From Branchinecta lynchi (lineage: Eukaryota > Arthropoda > Branchiopoda > Anostraca > Branchinectidae): a stretch of DNA of 64,000 bases. Position numbers and translations under genes: made by a program. The notes under the pieces are model-generated. The model saw only the letters and a list, made by a program, of their open reading frames with translations, was not told where the DNA came from and searched no databases. Shown here piece by piece: positions 3,430 to 64,000 of this stretch. Position 1 is the first letter of the stretch. Every line of letters starts with the position of its first letter. The DNA lies in the NCBI GenBank assembly GCA_023053575.1, contig JAKZAP010000016.1:8676046-8740045 (forward strand). The letters are read 5' to 3'.

Positions 3430-3565
3430 ATTTTATAAGTAGTGAACTTGTGAGCAGAGCCCCTCGGTAGCTCAGTTGGTAGAGCGTCTGTCTTGTAAAC
3501 AGGAAGCCTGGGTTCAAATCCCGGCTGAGGAGCATTTTTGTCTATCAGTTCACTACTTATAAAAT
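3430..3565. repeat. Perfect 19-bp inverted repeat around the tRNA
   Basis: Left arm ATTTTATAAGTAGTGAACT at 3430-3448; the right arm at 3547-3565 is its exact reverse complement. The arms enclose the tRNA-like gene with 12 bp on the left and 14 bp on the right, so the transcript or the DNA could fold with the tRNA at the apex. Confidence 0.85.
3461..3532 (+). tRNA. tRNA-Thr (TGT), or tRNA-Thr-derived copy
   Basis: A cloverleaf can be drawn. D stem GCTC/GAGC with loop AGTTGGTA. Anticodon stem TCTGT/ACAGG with loop CTTGTAA, giving anticodon TGT at 3494-3496 (Thr). T stem CTGGG/CCCGG with loop TTCAAAT. Internal promoter boxes A (TAGCTCAGTTGGTAGAGC) and B (GGTTCAAATCC) are intact, and a T5 pol III terminator follows at 3535-3539. 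The acceptor stem pairs six of seven positions; the outermost pair is C-A, although the next outer bases (3460/3532, 3459/3533) would pair again. That mismatch, the G at the discriminator position and the surrounding inverted repeat leave open that this is a mobile tRNA-like copy, not a canonical gene. No intron is present. Confidence 0.7.
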
Positions 3566-19989: not shown

Positions 19990-20223
19990 TTATCTTCCTC
20001 TTATTGCATAGAAATTCTTCTTTCCCGGCAAAGCAATAACATCGCTCTTCTTCCCTCGCAAACCGAAGAAATTCGCAGCCAACGGATTTCGGGGTCTTCG
20101 GTTTTGTTGATCAAGTCGCGTTTCTCCCATAAACCCATCGTCGTCGTCGTATAAGGCGTGCCTTTTCAAGGCCTTGACTTTGGTTCCGGTGTCGGCGTGG
20201 ATGGGTGGAAGTGGGAAGCGAAC
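19990..20223 (-). CDS. Tachykinin-type neuropeptide precursor, exon 3 (peptide exon)
   Basis: Codes residues 117-193 and the TAA stop. The acceptor is ATTTTCTAG before GTTCGC. This exon carries the likely hormones. After KR (136-137) and RR (158-159) comes a peptide ending NFFGLR, then G-K-K (173-175), the standard amidation and cleavage signal. Next is SDVIALP with G-K-K (183-185), then NFYAIR with G-R directly before the stop. FFGLR-amide fits the protostome tachykinin consensus FxGxR-amide, and FYAIR-amide fits the FxAxR variant known in a bivalve tachykinin. An acidic spacer with four Asp (142-145) lies between cleavage sites. The 82-codon exon upstream joins in phase 0. The products would act on a tachykinin-type G-protein-coupled receptor after dense-core-vesicle processing; this is inferred from the family. 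Natalisin (FxxxR-amide) is the main alternative. Confidence 0.8.
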   Translation of the reverse strand, partial: VRFPLPPIHADTGTKVKALKRHALYDDDDGFMGETRLDQQNRRPRNPLAANFFGLRGKKSDVIALPGKKNFYAIRGR

Positions 20224-20252
20224 CTAGAAAATTGGTGAACCCACTGACTTAC

Positions 20253-20749
20253 AGTTTAACTGAAAAGGCAGTTTATGTTTACATCTGATATTTGAATACA
20301 CTGAAATATTGTGAATCATCCACGGGATTTTTCTTTTTCATCCTAGACTCGAGGAATAGCATTCAGAATGTGTGTTTCACGAAATTCACTCATGGAGAAT
20401 TCGAATTCAGCATAAGCCTGCATTTCCAGGGTCAAAGATGCTAAACTCGGAAAAGTTACGCATGTAGAAAGTAGGAAAATGATGTTAAGATATGTCTTAC
20501 AAGGAATCTGACATTTTTATTTGATTTTTCGGCAATGGCTTTCATTTGTAATTGGTAAATATTTCAAGCGTAGACGGAAATGCACATAGAGATACCACGA
20601 ATCGAAAGAATATGTTCATTCAGTGAAATCGAGCTTCTGTGGCTAACAGACAAACGAAGTAACGCATTTGTATCGCGTTTTCATGCCTATTTTAATGAAT
20701 GAGTTATGTGTAACTTGGCTGTCGAATCTCAACCTTATTTGGTTAAACT
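20253..20749. mobile_element. TTAA-target MITE, family T3, copy 1
   Basis: In intron 2 of the peptide gene. Ends AGTTTAACTGA / TTTGGTTAAACT; TTAA on the right (20750-20753) and TTAC, one change away, on the left (20249-20252). Pair of 50811-51254, sharing the ends and the ACGAAGTAACG block, with a diverged interior. Confidence 0.6.
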
Positions 20750-20753
20750 TTAA

Positions 20754-22278
20754 AGGACGTATAGAATCTGACAGTTTGCATATGCAAACGATTAAATCTA
20801 AAATATAAATAACATATCGAAGAGAAATCTATAAATGTTGCATCGATAGATTAGTTACGACTTTCCACTCATTTGAGGCGCAAGGTCACCATCTGGCGGT
20901 GGAATTCGGAAAAACGTCGTGGCATTGTCATCCGAGGCGTTATTTAAGTTAAATGAGTGCGGCCACGCTCTTTGTCGGTGCCAAGTCGCGCTTGGTTCTA
21001 CGCAGTGAAAAGTCGAAGCAAAATCTTACAAATTTCTCTTTGTTAAGATATTTTAATTTCTAGATTCAAGTGATTACAAATGCTACCTATCAGGGGCTGA
21101 TACATACCTTCAGTAACGTGCCCGTACATTTTTTTTTGCTGTCGGGTAATTTTGGCCTCCTTCGCTTCGTGTTTATAACGTATCACCTGCATGCTTCGGT
21201 CCGATGTCAGTGGAAAATATTCTACTTATATCGGAGCGAATTTCAAACGCGAGCAAAAATCTTCTGCTGTATCTAGGATTACTATAGACAGTTATTTTTA
21301 AGATTCAAAAGAAGAAAGTGTTTCGTCACCGGGTTGTAAGATAATAAAGAATGATAATAAATAAAAATGCCTCTGAAGCCGGGCTTGAACCTGCGACGGG
21401 TATCTCACAGAATCAACTCTCTCGCCTACTGAGGTATCAAGAGGTTTAGTCGTCCTCAAACCAATATAATCTCACTACCTCTCTGAAATTCGTCTGCGTT
21501 GACCTTTCAGGTCTACGAAATACTAAAAGCTTAAAATTGTCTAAGACCGACAAATGAAGGACAAATTTTATGAAGAGAAACTCTTGGTTCCATGCGGTCA
21601 GAGACTTGATGAGTGGCGATTGTTTTACTTTCAGTGTACGTTTAAGTTCGAAATCAAAATTAAAATAAACTGGACTGGAAACAACAATTTGTATGAGGAT
21701 GATTAACGCACTTAAGTAGAGGAAAATAGAGCAGTATAGACAAATAAAAGGAAAAAATACACTGAGCTTTCAATAATGTAGTGATGCACGAGATCAAAAA
21801 ATAAACATTTAAAAACAGAAAGAAAAAGGATTAATCGGGTCTAAAAAATATTTTTCCTAGATGGAGTGCGGAGAAATGGCCAAGGGCAGAAACGTGAAGG
21901 TCCTGGGCAATTGAAGATAACTTGCATAAGGGTCAGAGGGCAAAAAAGTTGCAGTTTATGAGAATTCCTGTGATGTCGAGTAAGGTACAAGAGAAATTTA
22001 CAATATTTGAAATAATAAGTCCTGATACGTTTTAAATCCTTTAGCCTCAGAATATCAAAAATTCCGGAAAGGTTGCAGACAGATGTGATCGTGCTGGTGG
22101 GTTATCTTGCGACCATCAGGCATTTTTGGATCAGAGTAGGACTCGCCGATGGATCGTGGACTGCAACTCCTGCCAGGATTTGTGCCAGTATCATCGTATT
22201 CCGAGCGGAAAATATTTTTGTCCGCGGAAACCTTCTGTTCGCACCATGAATGTTAAGTGCTAAAGATTCAAAATATAC
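20754..22278. other. Intron 2 of the peptide gene, remainder
   Basis: Non-coding apart from the T3 element and a tRNA-like relic. An open frame on the minus strand continues past the exon 2 donor (to 22102), but the GGTATAT donor and the phase-0 join to exon 3 argue that it is intron. Confidence 0.5.
21369..21444 (-). pseudogene. tRNA-derived relic
   Basis: A B box (GGTTCAAGCCC, 21381-21391 on the minus strand) follows an A-box-like TACCTCAGTAGGCGAGAGAG, and the ends CCTCT / AGAGG can pair. A T5 follows the 3' end. The anticodon arm does not fold, so this is a decayed tRNA or a tRNA-derived SINE head. Confidence 0.45.
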
Positions 22279-22524
22279 CTTTGCCAAGCTTGACCGCCGT
22301 TTTTCGATTCTGCTTTTCTGGTCTTCGTATACCTGACAGACTGGACGCGGACCACCAGCCTGGTCCTCATCGAGCCTACTGCAAAGCAGTTTGCCCATGG
22401 CTTTCAGAAACTCGAAACTTGAACAGATGTCATCATTCTTGCATAAGGTCTGTCCGGGCTCAATCGGAATTCTGGCCGGATCACTAGAAGGGTCTTTTGC
22501 TGATACATCGTACCCGTTTGGGAC
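22279..22524 (-). CDS. Tachykinin-type neuropeptide precursor, exon 2
   Basis: Codes residues 35-116 in exactly 82 codons, phase 0 at both ends. The acceptor is strong (CACTCTTTTCTAG before GTCCCA); the donor is AAAG followed by GTATAT. It holds four cysteines (62, 68, 82, 97) in the pattern C-x5-C-x13-C-x14-C, spanning TLCKNDDICSS to RPVCQVYEDQ, and a basic KRR site (109-111) near its end. Tachykinin precursors that I know are not cysteine-rich, so this part may be a folded domain or a second product. The start of the domain, NGYDVSAKDP, is not one I recognise. A stop-free frame of this length with good splice sites and matching phases supports a real exon. Confidence 0.72.
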
Positions 22525-23490
22525 CTAGAAAAGAGTGTATTAGCAAGTAATAGCGGTGAGGCTGCCAAGATTGGTTTCGGAATTCCCCTACGACCCCAAA
22601 ATTTGCTGCCGCGACCGGTGTGTTTTTCCGCGACGCATTTCTATGCCATACGTTTCTAAGTTTTTGTCGCAAACAGAAAAGCTTGCACACACTCGACCCA
22701 CAAGCTGACCCCGCGAAACCCCATTTTATCTGTCTTCTGGCGGTAATTTCAAATGTCTGAAAAACAGACCCAGATCAAATCTTAAGAAAAAGTACTTCAG
22801 GCTTATGTCCTTACCATTTTGTATTAGAGGGATTCCCATTTGTATGTCCATCTAGTTCATAAAATAGCTAACTGTATTATTTGGACCCGCATTTGCCGCA
22901 TAATTTGAATTTCGGGTTAAAATCGAGCCACAACATTGAAAACCACATCAACAGTTTTTTGTCAAGTCGGTCCTCCATTGGCTATGCTAGGCTGTCGGAA
23001 GCGAATGTGACGTATCGTAAGCGGCCATTTGTGCCAGTTTTTTTGCCAATGAGGGCATGTACGACAGACATACGACATACGTTATATGACAGACATACGA
23101 TTGCCAGTGGAGGATCCACTTGAAATTTGAGCCACAAAAAACCTTAGGTACTGGTCGCGGAAACAGTCGTTTATGTGGGCCACGTAAACGACCGAGCCAC
23201 AAACACTTGGTGGGACCGCGGAAAAAGCATTAACAGTACTATAATATTCGTGCCAGGATCGGTGAGAATCCAACCAGCTTAGTGGACCTCAACAGACCTG
23301 CCGAAGAATATGGGAATCTAATGATGTATCTATTTTGACACAGTAACCCAGAGGACTTGTGTTGGTGAAAGATGGCAGTGACTGGGTTGATGCACGAGTC
23401 GAGAGCTGGTATTTCGATGCCGGTAGGCCCTGCGAAATTCACCTGTCGTGAACTTTTAATATCGGCCAATCGGGGTGGGAAGTAACTCAC

Positions 23491-23592
23491 TTCTTCGCTG
23501 AGTATGTAATCCTTATATCCATCCTCTTCGCAGTCAGAGTAACCTATCGAAAGATAAACGTATGTAAAGCATAGAACCACTCGGTAGTACAT
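23491..23592 (-). CDS. Tachykinin-type neuropeptide precursor, exon 1 (signal peptide)
   Basis: Codes residues 1-34. The start MYYR is followed by a hydrophobic run VVLCFTYVYLSIG, a typical signal peptide, with likely cleavage around residues 17-19, before the acidic stretch DCEEDGYKD. Donor: GAAGAA followed by GTGAGT, phase 0. The exons add up to 582 coding bases, 193 residues plus stop, with no gap or frameshift. The frame runs open beyond the donor to 23239, but the consensus GTGAGT and clean joining to exon 2 favour splicing there. A TATA-like box lies about 40 bp upstream. Intron 1 is 23490 down to 22525. Confidence 0.72.
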
Positions 23593-23630: not shown

Positions 23631-23638
23631 TTTAAATA
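23631..23638 (-). promoter_or_regulatory. TATA-like box of the peptide gene
   Basis: TATTTAAA on the minus strand, in the context GCGTATTTAAAGGCG, ending 39 bp before the start codon. A TATA at this distance would put the start of transcription close to the ATG, leaving a short leader. Predicted from sequence only; it could instead be a chance AT-rich word. Confidence 0.4.
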
Positions 23639-26723: not shown

Positions 26724-26808
26724 CCTAAGGTCTGTCCCCAAACTTAGAACTTACCAGACCGGCTAATGATCCGAATTACGCCATAAGTTTTCGTGAAATG
26801 ACGCCTCT

Positions 26809-27511
26809 GGATACCTATGACACTGCAAAAGTTGTCCGTCTGTCCATTGTCCGTCCGTCCGTCTGTGCGCACTATAACTCTCGAAGGTAATGAGATATTT
26901 TGATGAAACCGGAAAGTCTGCTAAAACTAAAAGTTTTATTTGAAGTTGAATAGATATTCGACTTAGGGGTAGGAAGACATGCTGAACACGATGATGAAAA
27001 CCATTTTCTCGCCGGACAAGTAGTTCGCCCGGAATTTGGCCAAAACCGGAAAGTTTGTTAAAAGTATAAGTTTTATTTGAAGTTGAGTAGATGTTCAGTT
27101 AAGGGGTAAGAAGACATGCTGAATACTTATGTGAAAAGTATTTTCTACCTGGACAACTTGTTCGCCCGGAATCGGGCCAAAACCGGAAAAATTTTTAAAA
27201 GCAAAAGTTTTATTTGAAGTTGATTAGATGACAGATTTGGGGGTAAGAAAAGACGCTGATTCTGTATATGACAACCTTTTTTTTTTACCGGGACATATAG
27301 TTCGTTCGGAATCCGGTTGAAACCGGATTTTTTTTTTATAAGTTAAAGTTTTACTTGAAGTTGATTAGATGTTCTTTATATGGATAAGGAGGTACGCTGA
27401 ATTCGTTTCTGAATTTTCTTCTTTTTTTTTTGACAAGTATGGTAGTTCGTTCGCAATTGTCTGGTTCAAATGTTAGATTTTTGGGATCCCATCGAAACCT
27501 TTGGTCTTGTT
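26809..27511 (+). mobile_element. Family G, copy G, head truncated
   Basis: Begins within the head at GGATACCTATGACACTGC, has about three central repeats, and ends GGGATCCCATCGAAACC and TTGGTCTTGTT. Confidence 0.74.
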
Positions 27512-29611: not shown

Positions 29612-29748
29612 ATGGGTCAGGGGGCAAGTGTTTTGAGTGACAAACATCTGGAATTAGCCGAAAAACTAACCAGTAATGAAGCCCTTGGACCAAATGATCC
29701 CTTCTGGAACAGCTTGCTTTCATCGTTCTATAAGACGCCACAGACAAG
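29612..29748 (+). CDS. DYM: Dymeclin, coding exon 1
   Basis: Residues 1-45. Dymeclin is a peripheral membrane protein that cycles between cytosol and Golgi and is needed for Golgi organisation and secretory traffic; human loss causes Dyggve-Melchior-Clausen dysplasia. The N-terminus MGQGAS fits an N-myristoylation consensus (Gly2, Ser6), and GPNDPFWNSLLSSF matches the NDPFW signature of the family. The donor is AG followed by GTGGGT; the exon ends in phase 2. The ATG aligns with the start of vertebrate dymeclin. Ten exons in the window splice in frame to 511 codons, against about 669 residues in the human protein, so the last 150 or so residues lie to the right of the window. All introns are GT-AG. 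A 5' untranslated exon further upstream is possible, because CAACACTAAGGACTAG could act as an acceptor. Confidence 0.92.
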
Positions 29749-30479: not shown

Positions 30480-32260
30480 GCCTTTTACCTTTGGGGGGAG
30501 ACGGACATCCGGTTTTTACAGACTGACTCCAAAAATGTTCCGGAAAAATTTAGCTATACCTACCATATAGGATCTAGCTTTTAATGTGTTTCAGACCCCC
30601 ACAAATTTTTATCCTAAAATGCCAATTAATGAAACAACGTTCTTCCAAATAAAGAATACTACAAAATGCGCCACAGGCAAAATTTTGTGTAAACTAACTG
30701 TAATGCATCAGTTGAGATTATTCCTTTGGTATATTAAAGTTCACATATTCAGCTTTTTGGGATCCCAAAACGTAAGTGGAGGGATACCTATGACATCGCA
30801 AAAGTTGTCTGTCTGTCCGCACAATAACTCTTGAAGGGATTGAGCTATTTTGAAATTACTTCAAATTAAGGGACAAACAAAATATTTTTTGAAAGCTATT
30901 GCGATAGTCGATTATGAGGTAAGAAGACATGCTGAGCACGATGGTGAAAACCATTTTCTTGTCGGAGAAAAGTTTCGTCTGGACTCTGGCAAAAAACGGA
31001 AAGTTTGTTAAAAGTAGAAGTTTCATTTTAAGTTGATTAAATGTTTGATTTAGGGGTAAGAAGACATGCTGAACACGATGGTGAAAACCATTTTCTTGCT
31101 GGACATGTAGTTCTTCCGGAATCCGGGAAAAAACGGAAAGTTGGTTAAAAGAAAAAGTTTCATTTGAACTTGATTAAATGTTTGATTTAGGGATAAGAAG
31201 ACATGGTGAGCATGATGGTGGAAATCATTTTCTCGCCGGATAAGTAGTTCGTCCGGAATCCGGCAAAAACCGGAAAGTTTGTAAAAAGTAAAAGTATTAT
31301 TTGAAGTTGATTAAATGTTTGATTTAGGGGTAAGACAACATGCTGAACACGATGGTGAAAACCAGTTCTCGCTGGACAACTAGTTCGCCTGGAACCCGGC
31401 CAAAACCGGAAAATATGTTAAAAGCAAAAGTTTTATCTGAAGTTGATTACATGATAGATTTAGGGGTAAGAAGAAACGCTGAGTCTGTATATGACAATAA
31501 TTTTTACCACGACATATAATTAGTCTGGAATCCGGTTGTACCTGCATTTTTTTTTAAGACAAAGTTTTATTTAAGTTGATTAGATGTTCTTTATATGGAT
31601 AAGGAGATACGCTGGATTCGTTTCTGAATTTTCTTTTTTTGCTGGACTAGTAGTTCGCTCGGAATTTGGGCGAAACCGCAAATTTGGCAGAAGGAAAGCA
31701 GGAACTTTCGGTCAGTATCGTCAAAATAGGTATGGCTTATAGAGGTATAGATAGGTAGATAGATAGATAGAATATCTGAACTCGGTTTTCTCTGATGATT
31801 AGCCTAGCGAAGACTGGATCTGGCGAAGACAAGACCCAATTGTCTGGATCAAATCTTAGATTTTTGGGATCCCATCGACACCTTTGGTCTTGTCATTTTA
31901 GCTTTTGGCAAAAGCGAAGCTTCCGACGACTGTACTAAGACCAAGCACCGCAGGCGAACTTTTTTAATCTGCCTTTTTTTGTAAAAATTTAGCTATAGTA
32001 CCATAGAATTTCCGGATTTTAATATGTTTCAAACCCCAAGAATTTCTGTCCTAAAACGAAAGCTCAATGATGTACTGTTCTTCCAAAATGCACGCAGGCG
32101 AAATTTTGGGTAAAACTAACTCTAGTGCATCAGTTGAGATTGTTCCTTTAATGTAAATTCATATATTTAAATTCACATATTCGGCTTTTCATTTCAGCTT
32201 TCGCTAAAAAGCGAAGCTTCCAACAACTGTATTTGTCTGTATTTTTTCCGGAAAAATTGC
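30480..32260 (+). repeat. Tandem duplication of a roughly 390-bp unit, one copy split by family G
   Basis: Unit 1 runs from about 30485 to 30757 and resumes at 31894-31975. Unit 2 runs from about 31976 to 32250. Shared order: AAAAATTTAGCTATA, TAATATGTTTCA, GCATCAGTTGAGATTRTTCCTTT, TTCACATATTCRGCTTTT, CATTTYAGCTTT, AAGCGAAGCTTCC. Only unit 1 carries the 1.1-kb insertion, so unit 2 serves as an unfilled site. Lies in dymeclin intron 1. Confidence 0.7.
30758..31893 (+). mobile_element. Family G, copy H, full length
   Basis: TGGGATCCCAAAACG head, about five central repeats (31030, 31180, 31310, 31440, 31570), tail GGGATCCCATCGACACC and GGTCTTGT. A TAGA microsatellite lies at about 31746-31770, just before the tail. 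Confidence 0.82.
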
Positions 32261-42588: not shown

Positions 42589-44060
42589 AGTTGATACCAT
42601 GGTAACTGGATCTGCAATATGACATTTTTGCAGTAACCGTGGTTTATGATATACGGTTGCTCTGCAAAAACGACAGTTGCTGGAATTGCGCTTCTCGAAG
42701 TCGTCCCAAAAGAACAAGACCAAAGGTGTCGATGGGATCCCAAAAATCTAAGATTTGATCCAGACAATTGGGTCTTGTCGTCGCCAGGCTAACCATCAGA
42801 GAAAAGCGAGCTCAGATATTTTATCTACCTATCTATCTACACCTCTATAAGCCATATCTATTTTGACGATACTGACCGAAACTTCCTGCTTTATACTACT
42901 GCCAAATTCGCGGTGTCGCCCGAATTCCAAGCGAACTACTAGTCCAGCAAAAAAAGAAAATTCAGAAACGAAACCGGCGTATCTCCTTATCCCTATAAAG
43001 AACATCTAATCAACTTTAAATAAAATTTTGACTTCAAAAAAAAAATGCGGGTACAACCGGATTCCTGACTAATTATATGTCCGGGTAAAAAATAATCATC
43101 ATATACAGACTCAGCTTCTCTTCTTACCCCTAAATCTATCATCTAATCAACTACAGATAAAGCTTTTGCTTTTAACATATTTTCCGGTTTTGACCGGGTT
43201 ACAGGCGAACTAGTTGTCCAGCGAGAAAATGGTTTTCACCATCGGGTTCAGCATGTCTTATTACCCCTAAACAAACATTTAATCAACTTCAACTGAAACT
43301 TGTTACTTCGAACCAACTTTCCGGTTTTGGCCGGATTCCGGACAAACTGCTTGTCCGGCGACAAAATGATTTTCACCATCATGCTCAGCATGTCTTCTTA
43401 CCTCTAAATCAAACATTTAATCAACTTCAAATCAAACTTTTACTTTCAACCAACTTTCCGGTTTTTGCCGGATTCCGGACGAACTACTCGTCCAGCGAGA
43501 AAATGGTTTTCGCCATCTTGCTAAGCATGTCTTCTTACACCTAAATCAAACATTTAATCAACTTCAAATGAAACTTTTACTTTTAACAAACTTTCCGGTT
43601 TTTGCCGGATTCCGGACGAACTACTTGTGCGGCGAGAAAATGATTTCCACCATCGTGCTCTGCATGTCTTATTACCCGATAATCGACTATCACATTAACT
43701 GTTTACAAATATTTTGTTTGTCCCTTAATTTCAACCCCCTCCCCCACCCCCGAATATAGGGCTACAGAGCTCATCTACGAACTCGACCTTACCCTTGACC
43801 CAAACAATCCTCATACTAAATTTCATCAAAAAATCTCATTCCCTTCGGGAGTTATCGTGCTTACAGACGGACGGACGGACAACTTTTGCGATGTCATAGG
43901 TATCCCTCCACTTACGTTTTGGGATCCCAAAAACTTATATGCAGTCACATCACGAAGTGCCAAACTTCTCTGCCAAAATATCAGATACCACGATCACTGG
44001 CCAGATACCACGATAACTGCAAAAACGACTTTAGACCGTGGTATCTGCAAAAAGGCAACT
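42589..44060 (-). mobile_element. Foldback element copy 2, split by family G copy J
   Basis: The left piece (42589-42712) begins AGTTGATACCATGGTAACTGG and reaches CTTCTCGAAGTCGTCCCAAAAG. The right piece (43930-44060) resumes at GTCACATCACGAAGTGCCAAAC and ends GGCAACT. Together they match the inverse of 4757-5113. CAT flanks both outer ends, a possible 3-bp duplication. The right end is 31 bp before dymeclin exon 4. Confidence 0.7.
42713..43929 (-). mobile_element. Family G, copy J, full length, six central repeats
   Basis: Plus strand begins AACAAGACCAAAGG and GGGATCCC, continues with five to six inverted units (TTTCCGGTTTTTGCCGG, TTCCGGACGAACTACTTG) and ends with the inverted head CTTACGTTTTGGGATCCCA. 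The insertion point can be read against the intact foldback at 4757-5113. Confidence 0.83.
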
Positions 44061-55066: not shown

Positions 55067-56216
55067 AACAAGACCAAAGGTGTCGATGGGATCCCAAAAA
55101 TCTAATATTTGATTCAGACAATCGAGTCTTGTCTTCGCCAGATCCAGTCTTGGACAGGCTAATCATCAGAGAAAACCAAGTTCAGATATACCTCTATAAG
55201 CCATATCTATTTTGACGATACTGACCGAGACTTCCTGCCGATTTCATAGCGAACTACTAGTCCAGCAAAAAAAAATACAGAAACAAAGCAAGCGTATCTC
55301 CTTATCCCTATAAAGAACATCTAATCAACTTTGAATAAAAGTTTGACTTCGAAAAATCCGGTTACAACCGGATTCCGGAATAATTTTATGTCCGGGTAAA
55401 AAACCATTGTCATAAACCGACACAGCCTCTCTTCTTACCCCTTAATCTGTCATCTAATCGAACCTTTGCTTTTAAAAATTTTTCCGGTTTTGGCCGGATT
55501 CCGGGCGAACTAGCTGTCCAGCGAGAAAACGATTTTCAGCATCGTGTTCGGCATGTCTTTTTACCCATAAATCAAACATTTAATTAACTTCAGATTAAAC
55601 TTTTACTTTTAACCAACTTTCCGGTTTTCGCCGGATTCCGGGCGAACTACATGTTCGGGTAGAAAATTGTTTTCACATAAGTGTTCAGCATGTCTTGTTG
55701 TCCTAAATCGAACACCTAATCAACTCGAATTAAAACTTCTAATTTTAACAAACTTTCCGGTTTCGGCCGGATTCCGGGCGAACTACTTGTCCGTCGAGAA
55801 AATGGTTTTCACCATCGTCTTCAGCATGTCTTCCTACCCCTCAATCGAACATCTAATCAACTTCAAATAAAACTTTTACTTTTAACACACTTTCCGGTTT
55901 TGGCCGGATTCCGGGCGAACTACTCGCCCGATGACAAAATAGTTTTCACCATCGTGCTCAACATGTCTTCTTACCCCATAATCGACTATCACATTAGCTG
56001 TTTCAAAATATTTCTTTTGCCCCTTAATTTGAACCCCCACCCCTAAATGTAGGGCTACAAAGCCCATCTATGAACTTGACTGGTTCGACGACCCAAAGAA
56101 CACTTGGTGTGAGGAACACCAAGTTTAATCAAAATATCTCATTCCCTTCGAGAGTTATCGTGCTTACAGACGGGCAGACGGACAACTTTTGCGATGTCAT
56201 AGGTATCCCTCTACTC
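55067..56216 (-). mobile_element. Family G, copy L
   Basis: AACAAGACCAAAGG tail on the left, five inverted central repeats, head reached at GATGTCATAGGTATCCCTCTAC where it stops about 20 bp short of the usual GGGATCCC end. Confidence 0.8.
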
Positions 56217-56572
56217 TACTACTCTATGGGACAAACGAACGCGGAGGAATCTAGCCACCTTGCTGTCAAGACTGGTACTTTAAGGAATAGTCGATTTGGG
56301 AAGTGGCGATTTCTAAGCCAAACTTGTCGAATCTCTCACATTCCAGCCAAGTTTCATCGTCCTAGCGTATCTGGAAGTACCTTAACTGAAAAATTGGAGT
56401 TAAGGTTAAGGATGGAAAATTGGAGTCAGTCTTGGAACTGGCATCAGTCTCTCCCCTTCCCCTCCCCGATAATGCTGCCCCGGGATCGGTGGGAGGTAAG
56501 AAATTTAAAAATAAAACAATATCCCGTGAATTTAATGATAAGTGTTACATGTTTCCTTCCTTCCTCTACAGC

Positions 56573-57208
56573 AATGCGGAAAGTTTAAACCTAGAAAAAT
56601 TAACTGAACTTGAGACCACGGCCCAATGCTTGGTTCTTCCGTTATCTGTGTAACCGAGGTCCATCGACAAGATTTAAATTTATTAAAAGTTCCAAATTTC
56701 TCATCTTTTGTTAAACTTCGCCCTGATGACCATCCCCTTGGGAAGAAAGGAGGAGGAGTTATAACCCTTGTACATGAAGATTTTAAACCTCAGCTTTTAA
56801 CTATACCTTTCCTTGATGAAAAAGATGAGATTATTTGGGTGAAAGTACAACCTAAGCGACTCCCCAGGCCGTTCTCTGCGGTAGCGGTCTGCGTTTTCTA
56901 CTATTCATCTAGTCAGCCCGCCGCAAGAAAGGCGTTTTGGGAGAAGTTGCAGGAATCAACGGATTACATCCAGAGAACACATCCATATTTCAGAGTAGTT
57001 ATACTAGGAGATGGTTACGAGCTGGCTACTAATTCGCTAGCCAGGTCACTTAGTCTTAAAAGCGTGGTTAATTTCCCGACGACCAAAGGTGAAACTTGTC
57101 TGGATGTGATCCTGACAAACCTTTGTAACTATCATCAAAATCCGAGTAAACTAGCACCACTTAGTGGTAGTTACCATTATATGCTCCGGTGGAACCCTTT
57201 TGAGAGAG
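56573..57208 (+). pseudogene. LINE endonuclease (APE-type) fragment
   Basis: NAESLNLEKLTELE at 56573, a one-base frameshift near 56628, then SSVICVTEV, a GGGVITLVHEDF block, VVILGDG and FPTTKGETCLDVILTN, followed by SGSYHYMLRW. This is the order of an AP-endonuclease domain of a non-LTR retrotransposon. Key residues are damaged: the Asn of GDxN and the Asp of SDHH are missing, so it is inactive. It is cut on the right by family G copy M. Confidence 0.8.
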
Positions 57209-58209
57209 TAAAAACCAAGTTCAGATATGGATTCAGCATGTGTGTTTACCCCTATAAGTCATATCTGTTTTGACGAAAACTTCCTGCCACTTCTGCCAAT
57301 TTCCCGGTTTCAGCCAAATTCCGGAACTACATTGTCCGGCGAAAAAAGAAAGCTCAAAAACGAACTCAGCGCATCTTCTTTCCCCAATACTGAACATCTA
57401 ATCAACTTCGAATACAAATTTAACTTATAACAAAATTTCCGGCCAAACTATATGTCCGGGTAAAAATTATTTTTCATGCACGGATTCATCATCTCTTCTT
57501 ACCCCTAAATCAGATATCTAATCAACTACAAATAAAACTTTAACTTTTCAGGTTTTGGCCGGATTCCGGGCGAACTACTTGCCCGGGTAGAAAATTGTTT
57601 TCACACAAATGTTCAGCATGTCTTCTTACCCGTAAATCGAACATCTAACAAACTCCAAATGAAACTTTTATTTTTAACAAACTTTCTGGTTTTGGCCGAA
57701 CATCTAATAAACTCCAAATAAAACTTTTACTTTTAACAAACTTTCCGGTTTTGGCCGGATTCCGAGCGCACTACTTGTCCAGCGAGAAAATGGTCTTCAC
57801 CATCGTGCTCAGCATGTCCTTCTACCCCTAAACCGAACATCTAATGAACTTCAAATAAAACTTTTACTTTTAACAGACTTTCCGGTTTTGGCCGGATTTC
57901 CGGCTGAACTACTTGTCCGGCGCAAAAATGGTTTTCACCATCGGGTTCAGCATGTCTTCTTACCCCATAATAGACTATCACATTATCTGTTAAAAAATAT
58001 TTCATTTGCCCCTTAATTTAAACCCCCTCCCCCACCCCTAAATGTAGGATTACATAGCCCATCTACGACCTCGACCTTACTTTGGACCCAAAGAATCCTC
58101 CCACCGAGTTTCATCAAAATATTTCATTCCCTTCGAGAGTTATAGTGCGCACAGACGGACAACTTTTGCGATGTCATAGGTATCCCGCCACTTACGTTTT
58201 GGGATCCCA
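57209..58209 (-). mobile_element. Family G, copy M, tail missing
   Basis: Starts inside the tail at AACCAAGTTCAGATATGG, joined in frame to the LINE fragment by chance, then five inverted central repeats and the head ending TTTTGGGATCCCA. The terminal stem-loop is absent. Confidence 0.8.
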
Positions 58210-63243: not shown

Positions 63244-64000
63244 GCAGTAATAAGTAGGCTTGTTGTCAAACAGGGATGCACGCTGTCCCCTAGGCTTTTT
63301 TCTTTGTACATAAATGATATAGAAGATTATTTTACGGTGAGTGAAGCCCCCAGGCTGCAACTGATGTCATTTAATTTATTTTGTTTATTGTTCTCAGATG
63401 ACATAGTTCTTCTAGGAAAGACAGCAGATGATCTGCGGAGGCTGCGTGGTGTTTTGCAGGATTATCTGGATAAGAAAAAGCTAGTATTAAACACCGCGAA
63501 ATCTGTTATACTAGTTTTCGGTAAAAATGAGGAATGCAGTGAAAGATTTTATTGTAAAGAGATAGAACTTAAAATAGTGAAAGAGTTTGTATATCTAGGT
63601 TGTAAGTTTTCGGCTACGGGGAAGTGGGGTGCACAGTTGGATAGTATAGCGGCGAAAGGCCAGAAAGCTTCATGGATGGTAATGAAAAGTATGCTAAATT
63701 GTTTAGGCCCAGGAGAGATGAAAATTCAAAAGTAATATTCAATACGAAAATAAGCCCAATATTACCATATGCAGCGGAAGTGTGGGGATATGAAACGGGG
63801 GAGAAAATTGAGCGCGTGCAGCTAAGTCATTATAAAAGGTTGATAGGGTTAAGTGGAAAGTTTAACGGATTACTACTAAGAGGTGACCTAGGTATTCATT
63901 CATTAAGAGGTAAGAGACTTGTAAAAATGGTGAAGTACTGGGAACGGATAACGGCCAGATAATAGACTCGTGAAGGCTGCGCTGCTTGAGGACCTTAATG
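63244..64000 (+). pseudogene. LINE reverse transcriptase fragment, 5'-truncated
   Basis: In frame from 63244: VVKQGCTLSPRLFSLYIND (RT motif B region), then LLFSDDIVLLG with the catalytic DD pair (motif C), the following LNTAKSVILVF (motif D region) and FVYLGCKFS. A frameshift near 63720-63735 moves to the frame of ILPYAAEVWGYE and IERVQLSHYKRLIG. A second shift near 63957 is needed for DNRLVKAALLEDLN at the edge. This is a decayed non-LTR retrotransposon ORF2 that continues past the window. It may belong to the same LINE group as the fragments at 47.3 and 56.6 kb, but they do not overlap, so this cannot be tested here. Confidence 0.85.

Follow-up and report, generated by a model that had tools for sequence, protein, structure and literature searches.

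Tachykinins and natalisins form the two arms of an arthropod neuropeptide superfamily: the former end in FxGxRamide, with Met typical at the third variable position (X3), and the latter in FxxxRamide. A survey of the group describes FxxxRamide as the motif common to both arms and natalisins as taking order-specific forms, for example FxPxR and FWxxR (PMC4730192). Decapod natalisins end in ...NPFWVARamide and ...NPYWIARamide (PMC7212414), and Drosophila natalisin-4, FFATRamide, combines FxAxRamide with an aromatic residue after Phe (PMC6880623). Natalisin precursors with two peptide copies are reported from the mites Varroa and Metaseiulus, the Varroa peptides ending in PGFVGARamide (PMC4730192), and from springtails (Collembola; PMC4770511). 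Peptides with the tachykinin (TK) motif and peptides with the natalisin motif share one precursor in Tetranychus urticae and in tardigrades (PMC4730192, PMC6880623), the tardigrade precursors holding one peptide of each type (PMC6880623). Here we describe a gene on the minus strand of a 64,000-nt stretch of DNA (the window; C7:8676046-8740045 in the host assembly of 575.7 Mb and 216 contigs that we searched) that reads as a believable small gene for two peptides of this group. Judged from its sequence, we hold it to be real with high, if not full, confidence.

The gene comprises three exons, at 23491-23592 (exon 1, 102 nt), 22279-22524 (exon 2, 246 nt, 82 amino acids) and 19990-20223 (exon 3, 234 nt, 77 amino acids plus the stop), all joined in phase 0. 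Exon 1 starts with ATG, encodes the signal-peptide-like hydrophobic start MYYRVVLCFTYVYLSIGYS and ends at a strong donor, GTGAGT; the second donor is GTATAT. The N-terminal hydrophobic stretch, residues 6-16, has a mean hydropathy of 1.97; the putative signal peptide is called on hydropathy alone. Exon 2 encodes a Cys-bearing propeptide segment that ends in EKRRSSLAK, and exon 3 holds all predicted amidated peptides. The acceptor sequence TTTTCTAG precedes both exon 2 and exon 3, and in both cases its TAG is an in-frame stop; thus, neither exon can be read from upstream without splicing. The joined exons encode a 193-amino-acid product with the C-terminus ...PRNPLAANFFGLRGKKSDVIALPGKKNFYAIRGR* in an unbroken frame. 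The initial annotation had proposed the same three exons, phase-0 joins and 193-residue frame, and re-reading returned them exactly, with identical coordinates, together with its dibasic sites and its two amidation-ready motifs, NFFGLR-G-KK and, before the stop, NFYAIR-G-R. A TATTTAAA box-like sequence (23631-23638, minus strand), recognized by consensus match only, starts 46 nt upstream of the ATG.

Basic cleavage sites are located at KRR(109), KR(136), RR(158), KK(174) and KK(184) of the precursor, and three Gly-basic sites fall within its last 35 residues (FFGLR-G-KK, IALP-G-KK and FYAIR-G-R-stop). Dibasic sites and an amidation Gly, as expected of neuropeptide precursors in general, are thus present. 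Dibasic and Gly rules predict three products, all on the minus strand: PRNPLAANFFGLR-amide (20056-20094), which follows RR and is itself followed by the amidation Gly and KK; a linker peptide, SDVIALP-amide (20026-20046), flanked by two KK sites; and NFYAIR-amide (19999-20016), followed by Gly-Arg-stop. Scans of the window with regular expressions found no further peptide copies.

Cys residues occur at positions 21, 62, 68, 82 and 97, with Cys 8 lying inside the signal stretch. Four of them (residues 62, 68, 82 and 97) form a C-x5-C-x13-C-x14-C stretch in exon 2 (22336-22443, minus strand) that matches no family in Pfam or NCBIfam. To our knowledge, no four-Cys propeptide stretch is typical of tachykinin precursors, and this one is unusual for a precursor of tachykinin type. 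Such an exon could belong to another or a lineage-specific neuropeptide family that converged on FxxxRamide, in which case the Cys-bearing segment might be the main hormone. No counterpart of exon 2 was found in Pfam, NCBIfam, the protein database or the host genome, where it matched itself and one insignificant place (E 5.7), as this explanation would have it; we consider it improbable all the same, as FxxxRamide, the motif shared by natalisins and tachykinins (PMC4730192), occurs twice here with GKK/GR sites.

Across all six reading frames, the window contains two matches to the pattern F-x-[G/A]-x-R-G-[K/R], both in exon 3, in the same frame and 19 codons apart. First-order Markov simulation of the window yielded a mean of 0.23 motif matches per window, and in none of the 100 simulated windows did two matches fall in one frame within 60 codons of each other. 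At least two G-[KR]-[KR]/end sites are present in two of the 345 stop-to-stop frames of at least 60 amino acids; the exon-3 frame is the only one with three.

The initial annotation named this locus a tachykinin gene. A pattern search found a separate exon at C4:16052298 that reads NEKRSLYKNRGKKIPSGFVGMRGKKSDNLFSQSEMSDGDYEVVLAKR and is bounded by sequences resembling an acceptor (CAG) and a donor (GTAATT). Its core, IPSGFVGMRGKK, is the canonical arthropod tachykinin form, IPSGFVGMR-G-KK. Arthropod tachykinin precursors usually contain more copies than the one seen at this exon, and no further TK copies were found in 139,801 bases around it. IPSGFVGMRamide is comparable to a decapod shrimp tachykinin, APSGFLGMRamide (PMC7212414). 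IPSGFVGMRGKK is preceded by KRSLYKNRGKK, a possible source of SLYKNRamide. Because the canonical TK exon lies on C4, the gene on C7 is distinct from the canonical tachykinin gene of this animal and would instead be a second, diverged member of the superfamily. The name thus holds for a complete, processable precursor gene of tachykinin kind in the wide sense, but not for "the" tachykinin gene of this animal.

Which arm the gene belongs to is a finer question. The reading that we favour, with about an even chance of being right, is that the locus belongs to the tachykinin/natalisin superfamily as a functional gene for a neuropeptide precursor, distinct from the host's canonical TK and most likely of natalisin type. 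FFGLR-G and FYAIR-G both read F-x-x-x-R-G-basic, which gives the two or more FxxxR-amide copies expected of a natalisin gene, and the gene is separate from the canonical TK gene. The tachykinin form FxGxR-amide appears in one of the two peptides: NFFGLR-G-KK conforms to it, whereas NFYAIR-G-R has Ala in place of Gly. In both peptides the first Phe is followed by an aromatic residue (FF, FY) and X3 is other than Met; together with the two copies on a separate gene, this makes natalisin a slightly better fit than a duplicated tachykinin. Arthropod natalisins share with the window gene the FxxxRamide end, in many cases the aromatic residue after Phe, the Gly and basic sites and a location apart from the tachykinin gene, and the mite and springtail precursors cited above share its two copies. 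The window gene differs in that its first peptide also satisfies FxGxR and in its Cys-bearing exon 2. The decapod natalisins compared differ in having the form FW/YW-x-A-R and many copies, with 16 peptides reported for a Cancer borealis precursor (PMC13329902).

Several observations, some on class and others on whether the gene is genuine, weigh against the natalisin assignment. As to class, the first peptide (FFGLR) fits the tachykinin form FxGxR equally well; FYGXR is listed among crab tachykinin motifs, so that an aromatic residue after Phe is not exclusive to natalisins (PMC13329902); a separate, typical natalisin gene may exist elsewhere in the host genome; and the only gene found in the animal's own genome that resembles the window gene is the C4 tachykinin exon. 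The locus could accordingly be a further tachykinin gene, duplicated from the canonical one within this lineage; FFGLRamide would then be its retained tachykinin, FYAIRamide a copy that has diverged, and the TK receptor the target of both. We regard this as possible, although on balance unlikely. Its FxGxRamide matches the protostome tachykinin rule, and BLASTP aligns exon 3 with the C4 exon over 31 residues of the form ..P..FxGxRGKKSD (13 identical, E 1e-4), mainly FxGxRGKKSD and a short preceding stretch. FxAxRamide is known inside an arthropod tachykinin precursor, as Drosophila DTK-6, FVAVRamide (PMC6880623), and two TK precursors are reported from some molluscs and Platynereis (PMC11365428) and from abalone (PMC9521575). 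However, X3 is Leu or Ile, whereas the genome's own TK has Met, and both peptides bear an aromatic residue after Phe. The E-value is weak support for kinship, being partly circular because the C4 locus was chosen by motif, and BLASTP found no significant similarity between exon 3 and the C4 exon past those 31 residues.

Arthropod tachykinin-related peptide precursors, the host's IPSGFVGMRamide exon included, share with the window gene FxGxRamide followed by GKK-S-D and dibasic processing, but the window gene has two peptides only and no FxGMR copy, and it lies on another contig than the host TK exon, with little further similarity. As with the window pair, DTK-6 has FxGxR peptides beside it on its predicted precursor, although that precursor is a multi-copy tachykinin precursor (PMC6880623). 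The pair could also represent a compact hybrid branchiopod precursor, in which one tachykinin-type and one natalisin-type peptide would follow a Cys-bearing propeptide, beside a separate canonical TK gene; we entertain this arrangement tentatively and think it rather unlikely. The mixed precursors of Tetranychus and tardigrades offer a precedent, but they belong to a chelicerate and to tardigrades, whereas the window's host is a crustacean with a separate canonical TK exon.

As to whether the gene is genuine, FxGxRGK[KR] matches 122 places genome-wide versus 128 for the reversed pattern, that is, without enrichment. A lone motif of this kind is at background, so the weight rests on context rather than on any one motif. 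In a codon-usage model trained on the neighbouring dymeclin gene, the gene scores highest in frame 0, which is mildly coding-like (-0.025) and outranks the other two frames; this is far below dymeclin (+0.213, the score of the training set itself), and the sense-codon score is reached by 1.5% of random stretches. The precursor matched nothing in Pfam or NCBIfam, and searches of 5.8 billion proteins for homologues returned 49 and 5 candidates, none at E <=10, although at least one Artemia protein (dymeclin) is present in that database. The protein search required shared 5-residue words (at most 100 words, with a length filter), and small neuropeptide precursors are often left unannotated; the missing homologue is therefore weak evidence. 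In favour of the assignment, neither exon 2 nor exon 3 has a second significant match in the 575.7 Mb of the host genome, exon 3 matching only itself.

A chance open frame or a decayed gene would agree with the background motif frequency, the faint codon signal and the lack of a database homologue, yet we consider it very improbable. It leaves unexplained the motif pair with three amidation sites, when the simulated windows held no close pair and no other frame had three sites, as well as the good splice sites, the in-frame stops at both acceptors and the unbroken frame. It is also at odds with the survey of the 122 motif places, of which 100 were listed and 22 were not. Among the 46 read in protein context (45 and the window's own), only the window gene and the canonical TK exon are precursor-like; 14 loci were read on the plus strand only, and five minus-strand loci were read separately. 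The other 54 listed places were judged by letters only (known repeat families, Ser for Arg, or a stop). Three sets of matches were set aside. A six-copy FSGVRGKR/FSGIRGKR array (C5:19770800-19773200) consists of tandemly repeated units of 191-192 bp, changes frame, contains stops and is no gene; the frequent F-x-GERGKR matches belong to a dispersed repeat, not to peptide genes; and the natalisin-like letters FWGSRGKR on contig C12 stand alone, with stops nearby and no precursor.

PDB matches at E 2.4e-4 and 0.037 were to photosystem I subunit IV and were dismissed as irrelevant; the exon-3 product found nothing in a phage collection. In the open-licence literature we found no prior description of the window gene and no paper with FFGLRamide or similar motif letters; the sole relevant match to the bare motif letters was the oyster peptide FRFTALRamide.

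The initial annotation had likened the FxAxR peptide to a bivalve form, and a lophotrochozoan-type tachykinin gene would be in keeping with FRFTALRamide, an FxAxR-type peptide in a survey of pearl oyster and oyster (PMC4200219). The neighbouring gene contradicts this setting. The dymeclin gene occupies plus-strand positions 29612 to 60168 at the least, in at least ten matched exon stretches with introns of up to ~6.5 kb. Its joined exons are closest to Artemia franciscana dymeclin among the matches listed (591 bits, E 3.6e-172), followed by a tick protein (326 bits), with Daphnia pulex at 284; the comparison covers the best 120 of 251 passing proteins, from the 7,997 scored candidates sharing most words. 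Identity to Artemia is 53-81% by segment over ten matches. Since dymeclin is nearest to Artemia, the host is an arthropod, a crustacean that among the sequences compared comes closest to Anostraca. It is most likely an anostracan, a relative of brine or fairy shrimps, but not A. franciscana itself. A lophotrochozoan origin, for which mollusc, brachiopod and phoronid literature was compared, is ruled out by this affinity, and we give the corresponding tachykinin gene a negligible probability; FxAxRamide is in any case known in Drosophila, in DTK-6 and natalisin-4 (PMC6880623). Thus, the initial interpretation is partly supported, right in kind and wrong in setting, and it had not considered the natalisin (FxxxRamide) alternative.

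Should the gene work as its sequence suggests, the 193-amino-acid preprohormone would enter the secretory pathway in neurons or in endocrine cells of the gut, where prohormone convertases would cut it at KRR, KR, RR and KK, as in established neuropeptide biology. A carboxypeptidase would trim the C-terminal basic residues and PHM/PAL would amidate from Gly, giving (PR)NPLAANFFGLRamide and NFYAIRamide, plus SDVIALPamide. Once released, the peptides may act through their FxxxRamide end on a class A G-protein-coupled receptor of tachykinin or natalisin type. In insects, natalisin signalling has roles in mating and reproduction.

Elsewhere in the window, a tRNA-Thr gene (anticodon TGT) lies at 3461-3533 on the plus strand, and a reverse transcriptase fragment (PF00078, E 1.1e-12; 63244-63735, plus strand) marks a retroelement piece at the right end. 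A dispersed repeat with recurring 'SGFGRIPxELLVRRENGFHHRxQHVFLPLN'-like text appears in open frames at 55384-58016 and 43194-43759 on the plus strand and at 26763-27098 and 30856-31173 on the minus strand.

Branchiopod tachykinin/natalisin systems look little described: Daphnia pulex provides the only branchiopod natalisin gene met in the literature covered (PMC4770511). In Artemia, diapause termination is reported to involve an active tachykinin-receptor pathway during its first 30 minutes (PMC11049050), and Anostraca are placed as sister to all other branchiopods (PMC8942981). The window gene is useful rather than startling, and its main point of interest is that an anostracan-like crustacean possibly has a second, perhaps mixed, TK/natalisin precursor beside the canonical TK. 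With a second ligand gene and its two divergent amidated peptides, Anostraca would offer a test of how tachykinins and natalisins parted and of how widely mixed precursors extend. A hybrid precursor, if true, would place the mixed arrangement of spider mites and tardigrades, or its re-evolution, inside Pancrustacea.

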